From Deltaproteobacteria bacterium (GTDB lineage: Bacteria > Desulfobacterota > Desulfuromonadia > Desulfuromonadales > Geopsychrobacteraceae), in NCBI GenBank assembly GCA_024276935.1, contig JAJRWH010000064.1, positions 1 to 40,312 on the forward strand: a stretch of 40,312 nucleotides of DNA, written 5' to 3'. The notes beneath the pieces are model-generated. The model worked only from the letters and a program-made list of their open reading frames with translations, had not been told where the DNA came from and ran no database searches. The position numbers and the translations under genes were made by a program. Shown here piece after piece: positions 20,579 through 33,130 of this stretch (the first letter of the stretch is position 1; the number at the start of each line of letters is the position of its first letter).

Positions 20579-20614
20579 AAAAAAGCCCTCGACACCTGTG
20601 TCGGGGGCTTTTTT
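20579..20614 (+). terminator. Intrinsic terminator after glnA
   Basis: An A-run followed by GCCCTCGACAC pairs with GTGTCGGGGGC, then six T residues; the stem is about 11 bp with a CT loop. It should end the glnB-glnA transcript. Confidence 0.88.
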
Positions 20615-20740
20615 GATACAGGTCAAAGATCGAGCTTCGGCTAAAGGGTAGGATCCGGCAGAATAAATTCTTTTTATGGGTTATACGCTTGACTCAACCT
20701 GAACGAAAGATGAGTTTGTGTGCGCCATTGGAAGGGTGTT

Positions 20741-20809: not shown

Positions 20810-20864
20810 GCATCGTGGCTCCAGGTGGAGCGAAATGGATAGATTCTTTTTTTTGGAGGATAAA

Positions 20865-21581
20865 ATGGCAGTTCGTGAAATGGTCAAGATTGATGAAGAA
20901 AAATGTGACGGCTGTGGCCTGTGTGTTCCCTCCTGCGCGGAAGGAGCGATCCAGATTATCGATGGCAAGGCAAAGCTGGTTTCGGATAATCTTTGTGATG
21001 GTCTTGGCGCTTGTCTGGGGGACTGCCCGCAGGGGGCGATTACAATCGAAAAACGTGATGCCGATGAATATGACGAAGCGGCAGTTGAAAAACGTCTGCA
21101 AGAGATCGGGCGGGCTCCCGTTGCCCATTCTGCTCCTGTGACCGGTGGTTGTCCCTCTGCCCAGGTCAAGACCCTTCAACCGGAGAGTTCTGCCGAAAAT
21201 GTCGCAGGTCGCAGACCCACCGAGTTGCGTCAGTGGCCGGTTCAGTTGCACCTGGTGCCACCGACAGCACCCTTTTTGCAAGGTGCTGATCTGTTGATGG
21301 CGGCTGATTGTGTGCCTTTTGCCTACGCTGATTTTCATAAAGATTTTTTACAGGGCAAGGCCCTGTTGATTGCGTGCCCCAAGCTGGATGACGGCCAGGC
21401 TTATATCGAAAAGCTGACCCAGATGTTTGCTCAGGGTGGTATTAAGTCCCTGACAGTCGCAATCATGGAAGTGCCCTGTTGTTCCGGTCTGGTAGCGATT
21501 ATCCGTTCTGCCCTGGCCAACAGTGGTGCTGATATTCCGCTTGAAATTGTCACGGTTGGTATTGGTGGTGAAATCAAATAG
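20865..21581 (+). CDS. 4Fe-4S ferredoxin-domain protein
   Basis: The 238-residue product starts with a two-cluster ferredoxin domain. The first motif is complete (CDGCGLCVPSC); the second, CDGLGACLGDC, has Leu where the second cysteine would be, so it may hold a 3Fe cluster or none. The remainder is a second domain with CPSAQ, WPVQLHLVPPTAPFLQGADLLMAADCVPFAYADFHKDFL, ACPKLDD and MEVPCCSGL, as in ferredoxin-like proteins of many anaerobes. The role is presumably electron transfer or Fe-S handling in the cytoplasm; the partner is unknown. ATG 20865 follows GGAGG by 6 bp. It lies behind a structured leader and is followed by its own terminator. Confidence 0.87.
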   Translation: MAVREMVKIDEEKCDGCGLCVPSCAEGAIQIIDGKAKLVSDNLCDGLGACLGDCPQGAITIEKRDADEYDEAAVEKRLQEIGRAPVAHSAPVTGGCPSAQVKTLQPESSAENVAGRRPTELRQWPVQLHLVPPTAPFLQGADLLMAADCVPFAYADFHKDFLQGKALLIACPKLDDGQAYIEKLTQMFAQGGIKSLTVAIMEVPCCSGLVAIIRSALANSGADIPLEIVTVGIGGEIK

Positions 21582-21615
21582 GAATCGGGTTTTTTCAGGT
21601 TGAGAACAAGATCAG

Positions 21616-21653
21616 ATACCCGTCAGTCTGTTTCAGGCTGGCGGGTATTTCGT
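21616..21653 (+). terminator. Probable intrinsic terminator after the ferredoxin gene
   Basis: ATACCCGTCAGTCT pairs with AGGCTGGCGGGTAT, with two G-U pairs and a short loop, followed by TTTCGTTTCTTTG. The T-run is interrupted, so efficiency is uncertain. Confidence 0.65.
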
Positions 21654-21705
21654 TTCTTTGATTTATGTCATACCGAGATAGATTGATCTGTGGTTTAATT
21701 CTGTC

Positions 21706-22824
21706 ATGAATAAATTACTTTTCTGGTTACTGGCCTTTTTGTTGACGGGTTGTGCTCCTGCGGTGGTTCCTTTGCCGATTCCGCAAACGGGTGATCTCAC
21801 CAGTCTGTCTCTGGCGACGATCAAGTCGACCGGTCCTGTGGCAGTGGCTGCCAATGGTTCGTTGCTTGCCTGGTCCGACTCGGCTTTGACTCTGTATGAT
21901 CTTGCAACCGGGCAGCAAAAGGTGTTGTTTAAAAAAGCGGTAGATGCCCTGTGTTGGTCACCTGATGGTCGTTATCTGGCTGCCGTCAGTACGCATGAAA
22001 ATCAGAGTCGGTTGCAGGTTTATGATTCTCGCGGGCAGCGGGTTTTTGAGGCCGGTTTTGCCGGGCGGGTTGTTCGTTTGATCTGGCCACAGCAGAACCA
22101 GTTGCTTGCCGGTGCTCTGACATATAAAAGCTATCGATTCGGGACGCATATCAAGGGCCGCTTGATCGAATGGGACCAGCAGTGGCGTCAGTCAGAGGTG
22201 CCACTGTTTGAAACCACAATCAAACCGTCGACAGCAAAACGTTTGGCGGGCCAACTCTATAAGACTTTTGATTTCGATTTGTCACCCCTGGCGGATGAAG
22301 TTCTTTACACCCGTCTTTATGCACCGCCCGCCTTTGAAGCCAGACGTTATCTGATTTTGCATAATTTGCAGACGAAAGAAGAAAAGCGAATCGGAGTCTT
22401 GCCCCTGCTGCGCGGAAAAGGACGATTGACCAGAGAGGGGGAATCTGTCTTTGTCAGTGATGGGCTGCAGCGGATAAAACGTCTGAATTTGTGGAGTTTG
22501 AAGGTTCAGCACCAATGGGCGGGAAACACCTTTGCCTATGATGCCGGTTCAGATCTGCTGGCGACAGAAACCGGACTCTATCGAGGTCAACAATTATTGA
22601 GCCCGTTACCTGCAGGCAGCCTGACTGAATTCTCTACCGGGGGCAAATATCTCTCGGTCATCTGGAACCGCCACCTTTACCTTGTCAGTGGTTATCCGGT
22701 ACCTGTCGAACCTGCCATCACAGGGGTCAAACGAGAGAAACTGCAGAAATTACGGCGCCTGCGAAGTCGAAAACTGATCGAACCCGAAGAATATCTGCAA
22801 GCCCGAAAGAGGTTGTTGCAATGA
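21706..22824 (+). CDS. Lipoprotein with WD40/TolB-like beta-propeller and SHOCT-like tail
   Basis: The 372-residue product begins MNKLLFWLLAFLLTGCAP, a signal peptide with lipobox LTGC (Cys16). The body has repeats like ALCWSPDGRYLAAVS and SRLQVYDSRGQRVFEAGF, typical of beta-propellers of the WD40/TolB type. The last 30 residues (KLQKLRRLRSRKLIEPEEYLQARKRLLQ) match the SHOCT pattern. The stop codon overlaps the ATG of the cytochrome gene (ATGA), so the two are coupled, and the neighbouring cytochrome ends in a similar SHOCT-like tail. It is probably a periplasmic scaffold that binds or positions the cytochrome; this is inference. No clear promoter was found upstream. Confidence 0.78.
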   Translation: MNKLLFWLLAFLLTGCAPAVVPLPIPQTGDLTSLSLATIKSTGPVAVAANGSLLAWSDSALTLYDLATGQQKVLFKKAVDALCWSPDGRYLAAVSTHENQSRLQVYDSRGQRVFEAGFAGRVVRLIWPQQNQLLAGALTYKSYRFGTHIKGRLIEWDQQWRQSEVPLFETTIKPSTAKRLAGQLYKTFDFDLSPLADEVLYTRLYAPPAFEARRYLILHNLQTKEEKRIGVLPLLRGKGRLTREGESVFVSDGLQRIKRLNLWSLKVQHQWAGNTFAYDAGSDLLATETGLYRGQQLLSPLPAGSLTEFSTGGKYLSVIWNRHLYLVSGYPVPVEPAITGVKREKLQKLRRLRSRKLIEPEEYLQARKRLLQ

Positions 22825-24086
22825 AATGGTCGTTGATTTTTCTTTTGTTGTTGCTTGCGGCCCCGGGATTGGCCGCAGAACGAAATGGTAAATGCCTTGA
22901 TTGCCACCAGCAAAGTGCTGCTGAACGTCAGGTGCAGAACAGTGCTCATGCCGGTGAGTTGAGCTGTGTCGATTGCCATGGATCAGATCATGACGCCATA
23001 GATCGCGGAGAAGCCTTTGTCGGTGTCGAGGTCTGTGGCCGTTGTCATCAGCAGCAGCTCGATGAACATCGGAGCAGCCGTCATGGAATGGGGCTGCACG
23101 CCGGGTGGGGTTGTACCCGCAACTTTTCGGGTCGGGACAGAAAGGATTGTCGTTTTTGTCATCGCGAAGGGGATACCCAGCCGATTTCTACCGTTCAATG
23201 CGCCCGTTTTATCAAGCAAAGTCAGGAGATGGGTCAGATCGGGTGCAACCGTTGTCATATGATAGAGAATTCCTGTGCCAGTTGTCACACGAATCATCGG
23301 ACTGATGCCCGAATCGTCAAGACGCCACAGGTCTGTGCCAAGTGTCATATGGGCCCTGATCATCCGCAATGGGAGGCCTGGCAAACATCACAACATGGGA
23401 CACTTTATTCTGCGCTGGGCTCTCCGGCCGCTCCAGATTGTCAGCGTTGCCATATGCCTGAAGGGACCCACAATATTTCAGGTGGATTAACTGCACCGCC
23501 AAGTGGAAAACCCTTTGCGCCTCAGGAGGCTGCTGACCAGCGGCAGGTCATGCTGAAACGTTGTCAGGAATGTCATGCCCGCAGTTTTGCTGAATCCGAG
23601 TTGCGCAAGGCGGACGCGGTTCGGCTGCAGACACGCAAACTTGTCGATGAGGCCCGAGAGATTATTCGTGATCTGGATGACCGAGGCTTGCTCGATCCTC
23701 AACCTTCTGCCAGGTTGGAGCATCCCCAGCGTGGCAAAGAACTGGTGCTGGATGGTGCCATGCTTTACGAAGATATCTCGCACATCGAAAGTTTGTTTTT
23801 TCGGATGAACAAGTATGCTGCGGCCAAAACGTTCAAAGGGGCTTACCATCAGAACCCGGACTATACCCATTGGTACGGAAATGCCGAAGTCAAGTTATTG
23901 CTCAACGATATCAAGGCCGAGGCCAGTCGTTTGCGCGAACGAGGCGGGCAAGCCGGAAATCCCGTCACCGGAGCCATGGATGAAAAGGCGCTTGAAATAC
24001 TACAACGCCGTCATCAGCGCGGCGAATTGGACGATGCCGAGTATGCAGAAAAAAAACGTTTGATTCTCGAACAGATCCTGCAATAA
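22821..24086 (+). CDS. Nine-haem cytochrome c, HAO-like
   Basis: The 421-residue product has a signal peptide (MKWSLIFLLLLLAAPGLAA, cleaved after residue 18 or 19) and nine CXXCH haem-binding motifs, at residues 25, 49, 72, 110, 142, 152, 172, 207 and 248. Two further cysteines, 98 and 127, are not in motifs. The order of motifs, HGMGLHAGWGC, CHMPEGTHN and the late FKGAYHQNPDYTHWYGNAEV resemble the hydroxylamine oxidoreductase/octahaem (Multi-haem_cyto) family, so it may act on nitrite, hydroxylamine or NO in the periplasm. The C-terminal LQRRHQRGELDDAEYAEKKRLIL is SHOCT-like and unusual for a cytochrome. It overlaps the propeller gene, and a YgbA-type gene follows 3 bp later. The exact enzyme is not determinable. 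Confidence 0.85.
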   Translation: MKWSLIFLLLLLAAPGLAAERNGKCLDCHQQSAAERQVQNSAHAGELSCVDCHGSDHDAIDRGEAFVGVEVCGRCHQQQLDEHRSSRHGMGLHAGWGCTRNFSGRDRKDCRFCHREGDTQPISTVQCARFIKQSQEMGQIGCNRCHMIENSCASCHTNHRTDARIVKTPQVCAKCHMGPDHPQWEAWQTSQHGTLYSALGSPAAPDCQRCHMPEGTHNISGGLTAPPSGKPFAPQEAADQRQVMLKRCQECHARSFAESELRKADAVRLQTRKLVDEAREIIRDLDDRGLLDPQPSARLEHPQRGKELVLDGAMLYEDISHIESLFFRMNKYAAAKTFKGAYHQNPDYTHWYGNAEVKLLLNDIKAEASRLRERGGQAGNPVTGAMDEKALEILQRRHQRGELDDAEYAEKKRLILEQILQ

Positions 24087-24089
24087 CCG

Positions 24090-24422
24090 ATGGATAAAGA
24101 AACCAAAGATCTGCGGGTGCTGGCGCTATTTACCAATACTTATTGTGCCGATCATCACGCAGATCGTGAACGAAACCCTCATGACCTGGACCTGCCGCGA
24201 ACGGATGCTTATCGCTATTGTGCCGAATGCGCCGATTTTCTGGCCTATGCGATTGAACGCCGACGCCGTTGTCCTCTTGATCCTCGTCCCAGTTGCAAGC
24301 ATTGTGAGGTCCATTGTTATCGGGCGGGACATCGTGACAAGGTGCGTGAAATCATGCGTTATTCAGGTATGGCATTGATCAAACGCGGTCGTGTCGATCT
24401 GCTCTGGCATTATTTCTTTTAG
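24090..24422 (+). CDS. ygbA: YgbA-like protein (NO/nitrous-oxide response family)
   Basis: The 110-residue product carries the YgbA (Nitrous oxide-stimulated promoter) pattern: RVLALFTNTYCADHH, CAECADFLAYAIERRRRCPLDPRPSCKHCEVHCY, and REIMRYSGMALI. Its paired cysteines and histidines suggest metal or Fe-S binding. E. coli YgbA belongs to the NsrR regulon and helps recovery from nitric oxide. Here the gene starts 3 bp after the HAO-like cytochrome gene, so both are probably on one transcript. It converges with the minus-strand CDF transporter gene. The family link is by recalled pattern; the NO role of the operon is inference. Confidence 0.8.
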   Translation: MDKETKDLRVLALFTNTYCADHHADRERNPHDLDLPRTDAYRYCAECADFLAYAIERRRRCPLDPRPSCKHCEVHCYRAGHRDKVREIMRYSGMALIKRGRVDLLWHYFF

Positions 24423-28737: not shown

Positions 28738-30437
28738 AATATTGTCAAAAAATAACTCTGGGTATCCTTATTCTGCTTCTGGCCTTTCCTTCGGTTCTGG
28801 CTGCGGCGACTGTTGAGCAGGACTACAAGAAGATTCGTGAAGAATATATTGCCTTGCTGGGCTCCTCTCAGGCCCAGCGTCAGCGACACAACTGGCTGAA
28901 GGTGATTGCCCGGCTCGAAAAATTTGCCGCATCGAATCGTTCCGGCCAGCGCAAGGATGATGCTCAGTTTCTGGCCGGTCGGGCCTGGCATGGGCTGTCG
29001 CGGGCTTCTGGCCGCAGTGAGGACGCACGCAAGGCCCTGACAGCCTATGAAAATCTGGCCAGGGAATTTCCTGACAGTAACCTGTCGGATGATGCGCTGA
29101 TTTATGCGGCTGAAATTGCCCTGGAAACCTTTTCTGACTCAGCTGCGGCCTACAATTACTATTTGCAGGTGACAACCGATTTACCACCGGGCGATATGCT
29201 TGCCGAGGCTCAATCTCGCCTGAAACGGCTGGCGACTCTTGCCCCGGCACCCGCCATTGAAGTTTCTGCTCAACCGGCAAAAAAAGCCGCCAAAAGTGGC
29301 CAGCTGACAAATATCAGAGTCTGGAGCAGCCCTGAGTACACCCGGATTGTTCTGGATCTGAGCAGCAAGATTGAATTTGAACCTCATCAGTTAGGTGGTG
29401 CGGAGCCGCGAATCTATGTTGATCTGTTGCAGGCTGAACTCGCCAGCGATATTCAGGACAGGCAACGGGTCAAGGACGGAATCGTCTCGCAGATTCGGAG
29501 CAGTAATCTTGACAACTCTCGCACCCGTGTCGTTCTTGATCTGACAACAGCAGGGGAGTACCAGGTTTTTCGGCTTGAAAACCCTGACCGGGTTGTCATT
29601 GATGTCCGCAAACCTGCTACCGGTACAACGGCAAGCTCTGGTACATCCAAAGCGGCAGCCGCCGGAAAAGATTCGATTGCGGGCATTCTCAATGAGGTTC
29701 CACTGAGCAAACCTCCGGCTCTGCATGTTCCGCAACATAATAAAAAGTCAGGGATCAATCTGATTGTGGTTGATGCGGGACATGGGGGAAAAGATCCGGG
29801 TGCTGTCGGACGCAACAAGACCAGAGAAAAGGATGTCACCCTGCAAATGGCCAAAAAACTCGCGGTCGCCCTGCGCAAGGGATTGAACTGCAAGGTTTTG
29901 CTCACGCGGAGTGATGATCGTTTCTTGCCGCTCCATTCCCGGACTGCCTATGCCAACAAGGTGGGCGCCGACCTGTTTATTTCACTTCACGCCAACGCCA
30001 GCACCAACCGCAAAGCCTACGGGCTGGAAACCTACTACCTGAACCTGTCAAAAAACAAACAGGCCGCCGAGGTTGCAGCGCGTGAGAATGGCACCTCCCT
30101 TGAAGAGGTGAGTAATCTCGAAGCGATCCTTTTCGATCTGATGGCCAATGCTAAAATCAACGAATCGAGTCGTCTGGCGGCAGAGATTCAGCAGGCTATG
30201 GTGCGTTATCTGAAACCCAAGTTTTCGCGGATCAAGGACCTGGGGGTTCGCCAGGGCCCGTTTCATGTATTGCTTGGCGCGACCATGCCTTCGGTTTTGG
30301 TTGAAACGGCATTTATCAGTAACCGACGTGAAGAAAAACGTTTAAAAACAAAGGTCTATCAGGAAAAGGTCGCTCAGGCCATTGTTCGAGGAATCAAAGA
30401 GTACACGGCAACGGTTGACAGGGTGGCCCGCAAATGA
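28734..30437 (+). CDS. N-acetylmuramoyl-L-alanine amidase (AmiC-like)
   Basis: The 567-residue exported protein starts on TTG, overlapping the mutS stop, with a signal peptide ([25 protein letters not shown]). A TPR-like helical part covers residues about 30-165. An AMIN domain begins near 190 ([15 protein letters not shown]) and targets the division site, and an Amidase_3 domain begins near 340 ([11 protein letters not shown]). Zinc ligands His350 and His419 (SLHANA) are visible, with catalytic Glu in VLVETAF. It cuts the amide bond between muramic acid and the stem peptide during cell separation. Its stop overlaps the glnD start (ATGA). Confidence 0.9.
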
Positions 30438-33130
30438 GTGAAGCATTTGAACTTTCCTGCGCTGATTTCAAGCCGCTCGACCTGGTTCAGGCAGCAGGCA
30501 GCTTTGAAGACGCGCGTGATTCATTGCTTGAACAGAGTCGTGAATATCTTGATACGCAGATGGCCGCGGTCCGTCATTATCACCGCCAGGGAGCTGGTGG
30601 CCGTGATGTTACCAGGGCTCTCACCCGGATTTTTGACCATCTGAATCAACAGCTTTTTGCTGCGGCCTCGTGGAAACTCGACCCGGCCTCTGTCGACTGT
30701 TGTGCTCTGCTTGCTCTTGGCGGTTATGGCCGCTGTGAAATGAATCCGCGCTCAGACCTTGACCTGATGTTCTATTATACGGATCAGGGCCGTGCTGCTG
30801 CGGAAAAGATTTCGGACCGGATTCTCTATCTGCTTTGGGATCTAAGTCTCGATGTCGGTTACTCGGTGCGTTCGGCCAGCGATTGCCTTGAACAGGCCGG
30901 GCAGGATATTACCGTTCGCACTGCCATGCTGGATGCGCGGTTTCTGTGTGGCAATACAGACGTCCAGGATGAGTTTTTCAAGCGCGTCTTTACCTATGTT
31001 CTGAATCATTCGACCCAGAATTTTATTAAAGCCAAGCTGCAGGAGAACCAGGAACGTCGCCACAAGTATGGCTCGTCGGTCTATCTGCTTGAGCCGAACA
31101 TCAAGGAAGGCGAGGGCGGTCTGCGCGATCTGCATGCAGCGCTCTGGGTGGCACGAATCAAGTTTAAAGCAGCATCACTGCGTGATCTGGTGGTGCGGGG
31201 AGTGCTGAACGAAGAAGAGGCCAATGATCTCGAAGAGGCCTATGACTATCTGTGGAACATCCGCAACGAACTTCATTTTCTGTCCACTCGCAAAACTGAT
31301 CAGATTCTCTTTGAACAACAGAGTAAAATCGCTGAATTTCTGGGTTACAAAGATAACAAACGTGCTCCGGCGGTTGAGCAGTTCATGCAGGATTATTATA
31401 CCCATGCGGCCTATGTTGAGCACCTGGCCAGTGCCCTGATTGTCAAGGCAACCCGGCGCGACGAAGTGAAAAAAAGGGTGCTTGGCTTTTTTGTCCGGCG
31501 CAATCTTGACGATGGTTTTACGATTCTGCGCGGTGAAATACGTGGTGGCTCCGATGAGCAGTTTCGTGAAAATCCGGCCCTGATTATGAAAGCGTTCGAG
31601 CTGGCCCAGGCTCACAATGCCGAATTGAGTGTTCCGCTCAAACTGTATATTCGCCAGAACCTTGAGCTGATAAATGATCGGGTTCGCCGCTCGAAAGAGA
31701 TGAATGAAACCTTTTTGCGGATACTTCGTCACCCTAAAGCGGTCGGTAAAACCTTGCGGCAGATGCATCATCTGCATGTTCTGAATCATTTTATCCCTGA
31801 ATTCAGACGGATATTCTGCAAGGTTCAGTTTGATCTCTATCATATCTATACGGTTGATATTCACAGTCTGTTTGCGGTTGAAGAGATCTGTCGTCTCTGG
31901 GACGGCGAGTATGATGAGGAATATCCTCTTCTGGCCCGTCTGGCCAAAGATGTTGAGAAACGCGAACTTCTGCTTCTGGCCATCCTCTTTCATGACATTG
32001 GAAAGGGAGAAGGAAAAGATCACAGCACCAAGGGAGCCTCGATGATCCCGACGATCGCGCGGCGCATGGGGCTGAACCGTGAAGACAGTAAACGCTTGCA
32101 GTTTCTGGTGCAGAATCATTTGAGTATGGTGCACATCTCGCAACGACGGGATCTGCACGACAACCGGACAATAACGGATTTTGCCGCCCAGATGGGGATG
32201 AGTGAAAATCTCAAAATGCTCTATCTTCTGACCTTTGCCGATGTCCGCTCGGTGGGCCCTGATGTCTGGAGTGAGTGGAAAGGGCAGCTGCTTCAGGAAC
32301 TGTATGAAAAAACTTATGATCTTCTGGAGAAGGGTGATTTTTATCAGGAAAAACGTTCCGAGAAGGTCCGTAATCGTAAACGTAAGGTGCGTACTGCGCT
32401 GATGGAAGATTTCCCCGAGTCTCGTGTGAATCGTTGTCTGGCCAATCTCAGCACTCGCTACCTGCTCAGTTATCACGCCTGGGAAATCATCAAGCATCTT
32501 CGTTTATCTTTGGGGCGTGGTAAGGCATCGCTGGCTTTGCAGGTTGATCAGCATCCCGAACAGGATTATACCGAGTTGACCTTGGCAACACTTGATTCTC
32601 CCGGGCTTTTTTCTCAGATTGCCGGGGTTATGGCGGCCCATGCGATCAATATTCTCGGGGCGCAGATTCATACGCGTAAAAACGGTCTGGTGCTGGATGT
32701 TCTCCAGGTGAAAAGTATGACCGGTGAAGCGGTTGAAAGTGATGCCAAGTGGCAACGTGTTGAAAAAGATCTGACCGGAGTGATTGAGGGAAGGGTTTTT
32801 GTTGAGGATTTACTCTCACGCCAGAAAGCACCCGATTTCATGGTGACGCGTGAAAAACCACTTAGCCCGAATCATGTTGATATTTCGAACGATGTCTCTG
32901 ACCAATACACGGTTATCGATATTTATGCCCATGATCGAATCGGCCTTTTGTATGATATCACCCGGACCTTGACCGAACTGGGCCTGTATATTGCCGTCTC
33001 CAAGATCTCGACCAAAGTCGATCAGGTTGCAGACGTTTTCTATGTCAGCGACATTTTCGGCCAGAAAATTGGTCCGGAAGAAAAAATTACCAGAGTTAAG
33101 GAAACCTTGTTGTCCTGTTTGGCCGAGTGA
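30434..33130 (+). CDS. glnD: Bifunctional uridylyltransferase/uridylyl-removing enzyme GlnD
   Basis: The 898-residue product senses glutamine and adds or removes UMP on PII. The nucleotidyltransferase site is GGYGRCEMNPRSDLDL at residues 96-111. The HD hydrolase site FHDIGKGEGKDHS lies near residue 518. Two C-terminal ACT domains begin near 714 (TLDSPGLFSQIAGVMAAHA) and 825 (DRIGLLYDITRTL). The length fits the family. The target, GlnB with Tyr51, is encoded at 18748. The start overlaps the amidase stop by ATGA, and xerC/D follows after 37 bp. The position inside a mutS-amidase-xer operon is unusual for glnD in enterics but seems workable here. Confidence 0.96.
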   Translation: MSEAFELSCADFKPLDLVQAAGSFEDARDSLLEQSREYLDTQMAAVRHYHRQGAGGRDVTRALTRIFDHLNQQLFAAASWKLDPASVDCCALLALGGYGRCEMNPRSDLDLMFYYTDQGRAAAEKISDRILYLLWDLSLDVGYSVRSASDCLEQAGQDITVRTAMLDARFLCGNTDVQDEFFKRVFTYVLNHSTQNFIKAKLQENQERRHKYGSSVYLLEPNIKEGEGGLRDLHAALWVARIKFKAASLRDLVVRGVLNEEEANDLEEAYDYLWNIRNELHFLSTRKTDQILFEQQSKIAEFLGYKDNKRAPAVEQFMQDYYTHAAYVEHLASALIVKATRRDEVKKRVLGFFVRRNLDDGFTILRGEIRGGSDEQFRENPALIMKAFELAQAHNAELSVPLKLYIRQNLELINDRVRRSKEMNETFLRILRHPKAVGKTLRQMHHLHVLNHFIPEFRRIFCKVQFDLYHIYTVDIHSLFAVEEICRLWDGEYDEEYPLLARLAKDVEKRELLLLAILFHDIGKGEGKDHSTKGASMIPTIARRMGLNREDSKRLQFLVQNHLSMVHISQRRDLHDNRTITDFAAQMGMSENLKMLYLLTFADVRSVGPDVWSEWKGQLLQELYEKTYDLLEKGDFYQEKRSEKVRNRKRKVRTALMEDFPESRVNRCLANLSTRYLLSYHAWEIIKHLRLSLGRGKASLALQVDQHPEQDYTELTLATLDSPGLFSQIAGVMAAHAINILGAQIHTRKNGLVLDVLQVKSMTGEAVESDAKWQRVEKDLTGVIEGRVFVEDLLSRQKAPDFMVTREKPLSPNHVDISNDVSDQYTVIDIYAHDRIGLLYDITRTLTELGLYIAVSKISTKVDQVADVFYVSDIFGQKIGPEEKITRVKETLLSCLAE

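Follow-up and report, generated by a model that had tools for sequence, protein, structure and literature searches.

A nine-haem relative of hydroxylamine oxidoreductase paired with a propeller lipoprotein at a locus with HcpR-type sites in Desulfuromonadia

The lipoprotein-cytochrome locus

The window analysed here is a stretch of 40,312 nucleotides from a member of the Geopsychrobacteraceae (contig JAJRWH010000064.1). On its forward strand, a gene for a propeller lipoprotein of 372 residues (21706..22824) is followed by one for a nine-haem cytochrome of the hydroxylamine oxidoreductase (HAO) family (22821..24086; 421 residues) and by a YgbA family gene (24090..24422; 110 residues). The cytochrome ATG lies within the lipoprotein stop codon, giving an ATGA overlap, and the intergenic gap between the cytochrome and YgbA genes is 3 bp, which agrees with the initial annotation of the locus as a compact three-gene unit. 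Ahead of these genes, on the same strand, stands a ferredoxin-like gene (FER; 20835..21581) with two [4Fe-4S] motifs of the Pfam Fer4 families and a conserved C-terminal domain; its true start is probably the ATG at 20865, since orthologues begin at that methionine. An intrinsic-terminator-like hairpin, also on the forward strand (21614..21650; a 17-pair stem, then a T-rich tail), lies between the ferredoxin and lipoprotein genes and sets them apart. Two HcpR-type palindromes complete the locus: TTGATACAGGTCAA (20613..20626), 5' of the ferredoxin gene, has no mismatches to the motif TTGAYNNNNRTCAW, and TTGATTTATGTCAT (21658..21671, forward strand), 5' of the lipoprotein gene, is a relaxed match whose centre lies 41.5 bp ahead of the ATG. 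The ferredoxin gene, the palindromes and the tails described below were absent from the initial annotation.

The lipoprotein carries a lipobox, MNKLLFWLLAFLLTGC, with LTGC at residues 13-16, and the cysteine predicted to be processed, Cys16, is aligned in 39 of 39 lipoproteins. The residue at +2 is not Asp; in E. coli, the lack of Asp at this position favours the outer membrane. Structure prediction (pLDDT 93.5) gave 28 strands arranged as a seven-bladed propeller, as had been proposed from the sequence, followed by a helical hairpin (residues 340-371), and the nearest structures were of the WD40 type (Z about 22). Outside the genus, lipoprotein identity falls to about 23-32%.

The cytochrome has exactly nine CXXCH motifs (C25, C49, C72, C110, C142, C152, C172, C207 and C248), the number first annotated and the number found in all orthologues examined, so we class it as a nine-haem relative rather than as an octahaem HAO. 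Its likeness to HAO also held up, with HAO structures matched at E 7e-29 by sequence and 1e-49 as a profile, and the homology covers the haem core and the C-terminal helices. The fold model, a monomer without haems, is of moderate confidence overall (pLDDT 75) and of low confidence near the ninth haem. HAO is matched at Z 16 by the C-terminal half of the model, whose nearest structural relatives are HAO-family enzymes. The extra haem, C110, comes after haem 3 and before that of the active site. When the cytochrome is aligned instead with eight-haem relatives, C110 falls opposite their haem 4; we preferred the alignment to HAO structures because the spacing and context around C142 and C152 match. 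The ninth haem is flanked by two invariant non-haem cysteines, C98 and C127, for which a disulfide or ligand role is possible.

Both proteins end in a predicted C-terminal helical hairpin. The cytochrome tail (residues 390-416) scored 27.1 bits against SHOCT (PF09851; cut-off 27), and SHOCT was found at E<=0.01 in 33 of 41 cytochromes. The lipoprotein tail scored 16.7 bits, below the same cut-off, but proved homologous to the cytochrome tail when the two families of tails were compared profile to profile (probability 94%, E 9e-8), hence our term SHOCT-like. Homologous tails on adjacent, co-inherited exported proteins suggest docking, which would fit the lipoprotein scaffold proposed in the initial annotation. 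The sole SHOCT experiment that we found asked whether a single domain oligomerises with itself, and its outcome was negative (PMC3581485).

A conserved pair and its association with YgbA and ferredoxin

Among the matches listed, a cytochrome orthologue (identity about 52-84%) was present in 56 of the 277 genomes of the class, and the named genomes that have one are Geopsychrobacter MAGs. Outside the class, with at most four candidates scored per genome, none of the other sampled Desulfobacterota genomes (395 in all) had a cytochrome match at E<=1e-60. In each of the 40 orthologous loci examined with flanks, the cytochrome gene comes directly after that of the lipoprotein, in most of them with the 4-bp overlap kept, ruling out chance gene order. 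Since this adjacency holds despite the divergence of the lipoprotein, the pair is the true unit. YgbA directly follows the cytochrome in 17 of 41 loci, the window included, and an obligate three-gene unit is thereby ruled out: of the compact unit first described, and of the three-gene set when searched for across the class, the lipoprotein-cytochrome part stood and the attachment of YgbA proved looser.

The YgbA assignment itself was borne out, with 66.8 bits against Pfam PF11756 (YgbA_NO; cut-off 25) and 112 against NCBIfam NF007714 (cut-off 88). Seven cysteines are invariant (C19, C44, C47, C61, C69, C72 and C76), no signal peptide was seen in the sequence, and the protein looks cytoplasmic. 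YgbA occurs in 228 of the 277 genomes of the class, mostly without the cytochrome alongside, and the ferredoxin in 219. Where YgbA and then ferredoxin occur without the cytochrome the two genes are close neighbours, and in other lineages the ferredoxin gene lies directly 3' of ygbA. YgbA and the two-[4Fe-4S] ferredoxin are thus a separate, class-wide pair, and the order in the window, with ferredoxin ahead of lipoprotein-cytochrome-YgbA, is a genus-level variant of lipoprotein-cytochrome-YgbA-ferredoxin. The best account of these arrangements is that the lipoprotein-cytochrome pair merged with a ygbA-ferredoxin response in one lineage.

It could be argued that YgbA is a downstream passenger without a functional link to the cytochrome, as its wide occurrence away from the cytochrome would allow. 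We think this unlikely, though worth keeping in mind, because the linkage has been kept across deep divergence and is accompanied by a shared site 5' of the first gene, and because the gap in the window is so short; it would in any case be compatible with the tethered reductase proposed below. The linkage has changed only about three times on the tree, which amounts to 2-3 independent contrasts. Geobacter-like genomes carry the pair with neither YgbA linkage nor an HcpR-type site, so the evidence for a nitrogen role does not extend to the whole family.

Enterobacterial YgbA, a member of the NsrR regulon, shares with the YgbA of the window the family PF11756 and a nitric oxide (NO)-response context (PMC2884951, PMC5320621), but the latter differs in being paired with a ferredoxin and in having an HcpR-type palindrome ahead. 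A second YgbA-family group, at L095-L110, has 25-48% identity to the YgbA of the window and neither a ferredoxin neighbour nor an HcpR-type site. We considered whether FER might be FrdX, the ferredoxin partner of Hcp, and found no support for this by hcp linkage, a FER homologue lying within about 1.5 kb of hcp at one of 30 hcp loci.

HcpR-type sites and the putative regulator

For delta-proteobacterial HcpR, the predicted site given in the main account of the regulon is wyTTGACnnnnGTCAArw (PMC1274295). Fourteen of 16 YgbA-linked loci have the strict palindrome TTGACNNNNGTCAA, at <=1 mismatch, 5' of the lipoprotein gene and within 150 bp of its start, against 0.08 expected from random sequence of the same dinucleotide make-up; among unlinked loci it is present in one of 24. 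As YgbA linkage is clustered on the tree (three changes), the 14 sites do not represent 14 independent events. HcpR-type sites at this position nonetheless persist over long branches. L040 is without an HcpR-type site before its lipoprotein gene. The site in the window has two mismatches to the strict consensus and fits the relaxed motif only, a motif that was chosen after relatives had been seen and for which about one match is expected by chance in a 40-kb window, so its support comes from position and conservation rather than from the match as such. A further relaxed match, at 31830, falls within an ORF (30434-33130) and was rejected as a regulatory site.

A site centre at -40.5 to -42.5 is common to eight relatives (L039, L041, L044, L054, L056, L057, L060 and L071). 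In the window, the lipoprotein gene has TTTAAT at -12 and no Shine-Dalgarno sequence. If transcription starts at the ATG, a centre at 41.5 bp is the spacing of a class II activator, and the transcript of the lipoprotein operon is accordingly predicted to be leaderless. All of the eight relatives except L044 have a -10-like hexamer just before the lipoprotein ATG and no Shine-Dalgarno sequence, and a leaderless transcript is predicted for these loci too; many YgbA-unlinked relatives have a clear Shine-Dalgarno sequence before the lipoprotein gene.

The site before the ferredoxin gene has an identical copy 5' of the orthologue in L039 and L040, and seven other loci have sites of their own. The motif also precedes YgbA-ferredoxin pairs that lack the cytochrome elsewhere, and it precedes hcp within one mismatch in 18 of 24 cases (three of these rows being the same gene of the genome under study). 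In that genome, one strict HcpR-type site lies before hcp and another before a cytochrome c-narG cluster; the remaining two of its four strict palindromes (C56 and C116) fall inside other ORFs and were taken as chance. The narG cluster (L093, 2930-6001) begins with a small cytochrome c and has a perfect HcpR-type site ahead of it.

In 11 loci a CRP/FNR-family gene lies just 5' of the operon, and its recognition-helix signature, SE...R, fits published delta-proteobacterial HcpR. The genome under study encodes an HcpR-like protein that is 61% identical to this neighbouring regulator, the identification as HcpR being based on the helix signature and the site rather than on a curated model. HcpR proteins of other bacteria sense NO through haem (PMC12750200, PMC5701242). 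Palindrome and regulator type are as in the HcpR regulon outlined by Rodionov (2005; main account, PMC1274295), whose predicted members in Desulfuromonas and Geobacter include hcp, frdX, nar and cytochrome-c-like genes; its main description does not name the lipoprotein-nine-haem pair, the SHOCT tails or ygbA. By its site and by the regulator present in the genome the operon is predicted to belong to the HcpR regulon, with the putative site itself a relaxed match only.

Active site and proposed function

In the profile alignment, the active-site haem of the cytochrome (C142/C145/H146) corresponds to the P460 haem of Nitrosomonas europaea HAO (C229/C232/H233), and Asp180-His181 to Asp267-His268 of that enzyme. 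C142/C145/H146, D180 and H181 are invariant in 41 of 41 cytochromes, as are a dozen histidines outside the motifs. This conservation, together with the nearness of HAO-family enzymes in structure, argues against the cytochrome being a periplasmic or surface electron-transfer protein of metal or electrode respiration, with a vestigial HAO-type active site, that was captured by a nitrogen regulon in some lineages as an electron carrier. The host class is rich in multihaem electron-transfer cytochromes, and both the site and YgbA are missing from over half of the loci examined, so such a role keeps some weight; we nevertheless regard it as distinctly unlikely.

The residue at the HAO cross-link position bears on the direction of the reaction. 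Tyr467 of N. europaea HAO is aligned to the invariant His350, or, if a gap is disallowed, to Trp351, which is also invariant. Reductive HAOs have His or Trp at this position (PMC12758564, PMC8940962), and the reductive epsilon-Hao has Trp there with Met eight residues before it (PMC8940962); in our cytochrome, W351 is invariant and position 343 is His rather than Met. Because most alignments place His or Trp opposite the cross-link tyrosine, a reductase seems the better guess. Tyr348 (40 of 41 cytochromes) and Tyr352 (37 of 41) adjoin the cross-link position, however, and leave an oxidative option open, in which hydroxylamine arising from nitrite reduction would be converted to NO, with electrons passed to the haem chain and with the active-site haem bearing a cross-link to Tyr352 or Tyr348 of an adjacent subunit. 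An alignment to Kuenenia HAO does set Tyr352 opposite a Tyr, yet this residue is Ile or Leu in four of 41 cytochromes, eight-haem relatives with NPDYxxWYG are similar to the reductive group for which Trp is described at this point, and production of NO would be odd for an NO-defence regulon. Taken with the placement of Tyr467 opposite His350, these points make oxidation improbable. Less probable still is reduction of an oxyanion of sulfur or of another element (sulfite, tetrathionate or selenite) instead of a nitrogen compound: other octahaem cytochromes perform such chemistry and the YgbA-unlinked loci offer no nitrogen context, but the linked lineage has an hcp-like regulatory context, and the matches in sequence and fold are to nitrogen enzymes.

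From the computed gene order, haem count, active-site residues, tails, sites and presence of the regulator, hcp and narG, we infer the induction, tethering, reductive direction and substrate of what we consider the leading reading, with a probability of roughly 0.55: a periplasmic enzyme, tethered by a lipoprotein and induced by NO or nitrite, that reduces a reactive nitrogen species. An HcpR-type CRP/FNR regulator would bind the palindrome 5' of the lipoprotein gene and activate the promoter, so that transcription would start at the lipoprotein ATG or close to it. The lipoprotein would be anchored to a periplasm-facing membrane and present its seven-bladed propeller, and the exported cytochrome would dock to it, most simply through the homologous C-terminal SHOCT hairpins. 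Electrons may then run along the haem chain to the active-site haem, where nitrite, NO or hydroxylamine would be reduced, while YgbA and the ferredoxin would form the cytoplasmic arm of the same response. The periplasmic reactive-nitrogen system of the initial annotation gains from the HcpR-type sites and from a genome that also holds hcp, narG and an HcpR-like regulator, but YgbA looks cytoplasmic and belongs to the pair with ferredoxin.

More tentatively, and at somewhat less than an even chance, the nine-haem HAO relative held to the propeller lipoprotein by paired SHOCT hairpins may constitute a new membrane-tethered reactive-nitrogen reductase, in which SHOCT would for the first time have a clear task, that of a docking tag joining two neighbouring gene products. 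Capture at a point between the promoter site of ygbA and ygbA itself would have brought this reductase into the HcpR response to NO. If true, this would give the HAO family a tethered, NO-inducible branch among anaerobic metal reducers, with a host genome that has the nitrate reductase gene narG and in which no NrfA was found above the cut-off, and it would offer handles on two long-standing puzzles, the functions of YgbA and of the SHOCT domain.

Among known systems, the epsilonproteobacterial-type Hao, a reductive octahaem enzyme of the reverse-HURM nitrite-to-hydroxylamine pathway, has the HAO-type haem core in common with the cytochrome. The Kuenenia reductive HAO-like protein Kustc0457/0458 (6h5l) matches its fold at Z 15.5 over 199 residues, with 30% identity there. 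Reductive HAOs are described as without the Tyr cross-link; Kustc0457/0458 and HAOr differ in being anammox proteins with eight haems. We know of no SHOCT tail or propeller lipoprotein partner for either. N. europaea HAO (1fgj, 4n4n; Z 16) shares the active-site haem and the Asp-His pair, but is oxidative, has the Tyr467 cross-link and eight haems, and has no additional CXXCH in the stretch from haem 3 to the active-site haem. Ten eight-haem relatives, putatively of the epsilon-Hao type, align over nearly the full length at 27-30% identity and share CHMGxDHPQWE and the C-terminal NPDYxxWYG; unlike the cytochrome, they have eight haems, no SHOCT tail and no propeller lipoprotein neighbour. At L173, hcp has a stretch similar to the cytochrome (27% identity) no more than about 1.5 kb away, perhaps an eight-haem HAO-like gene.
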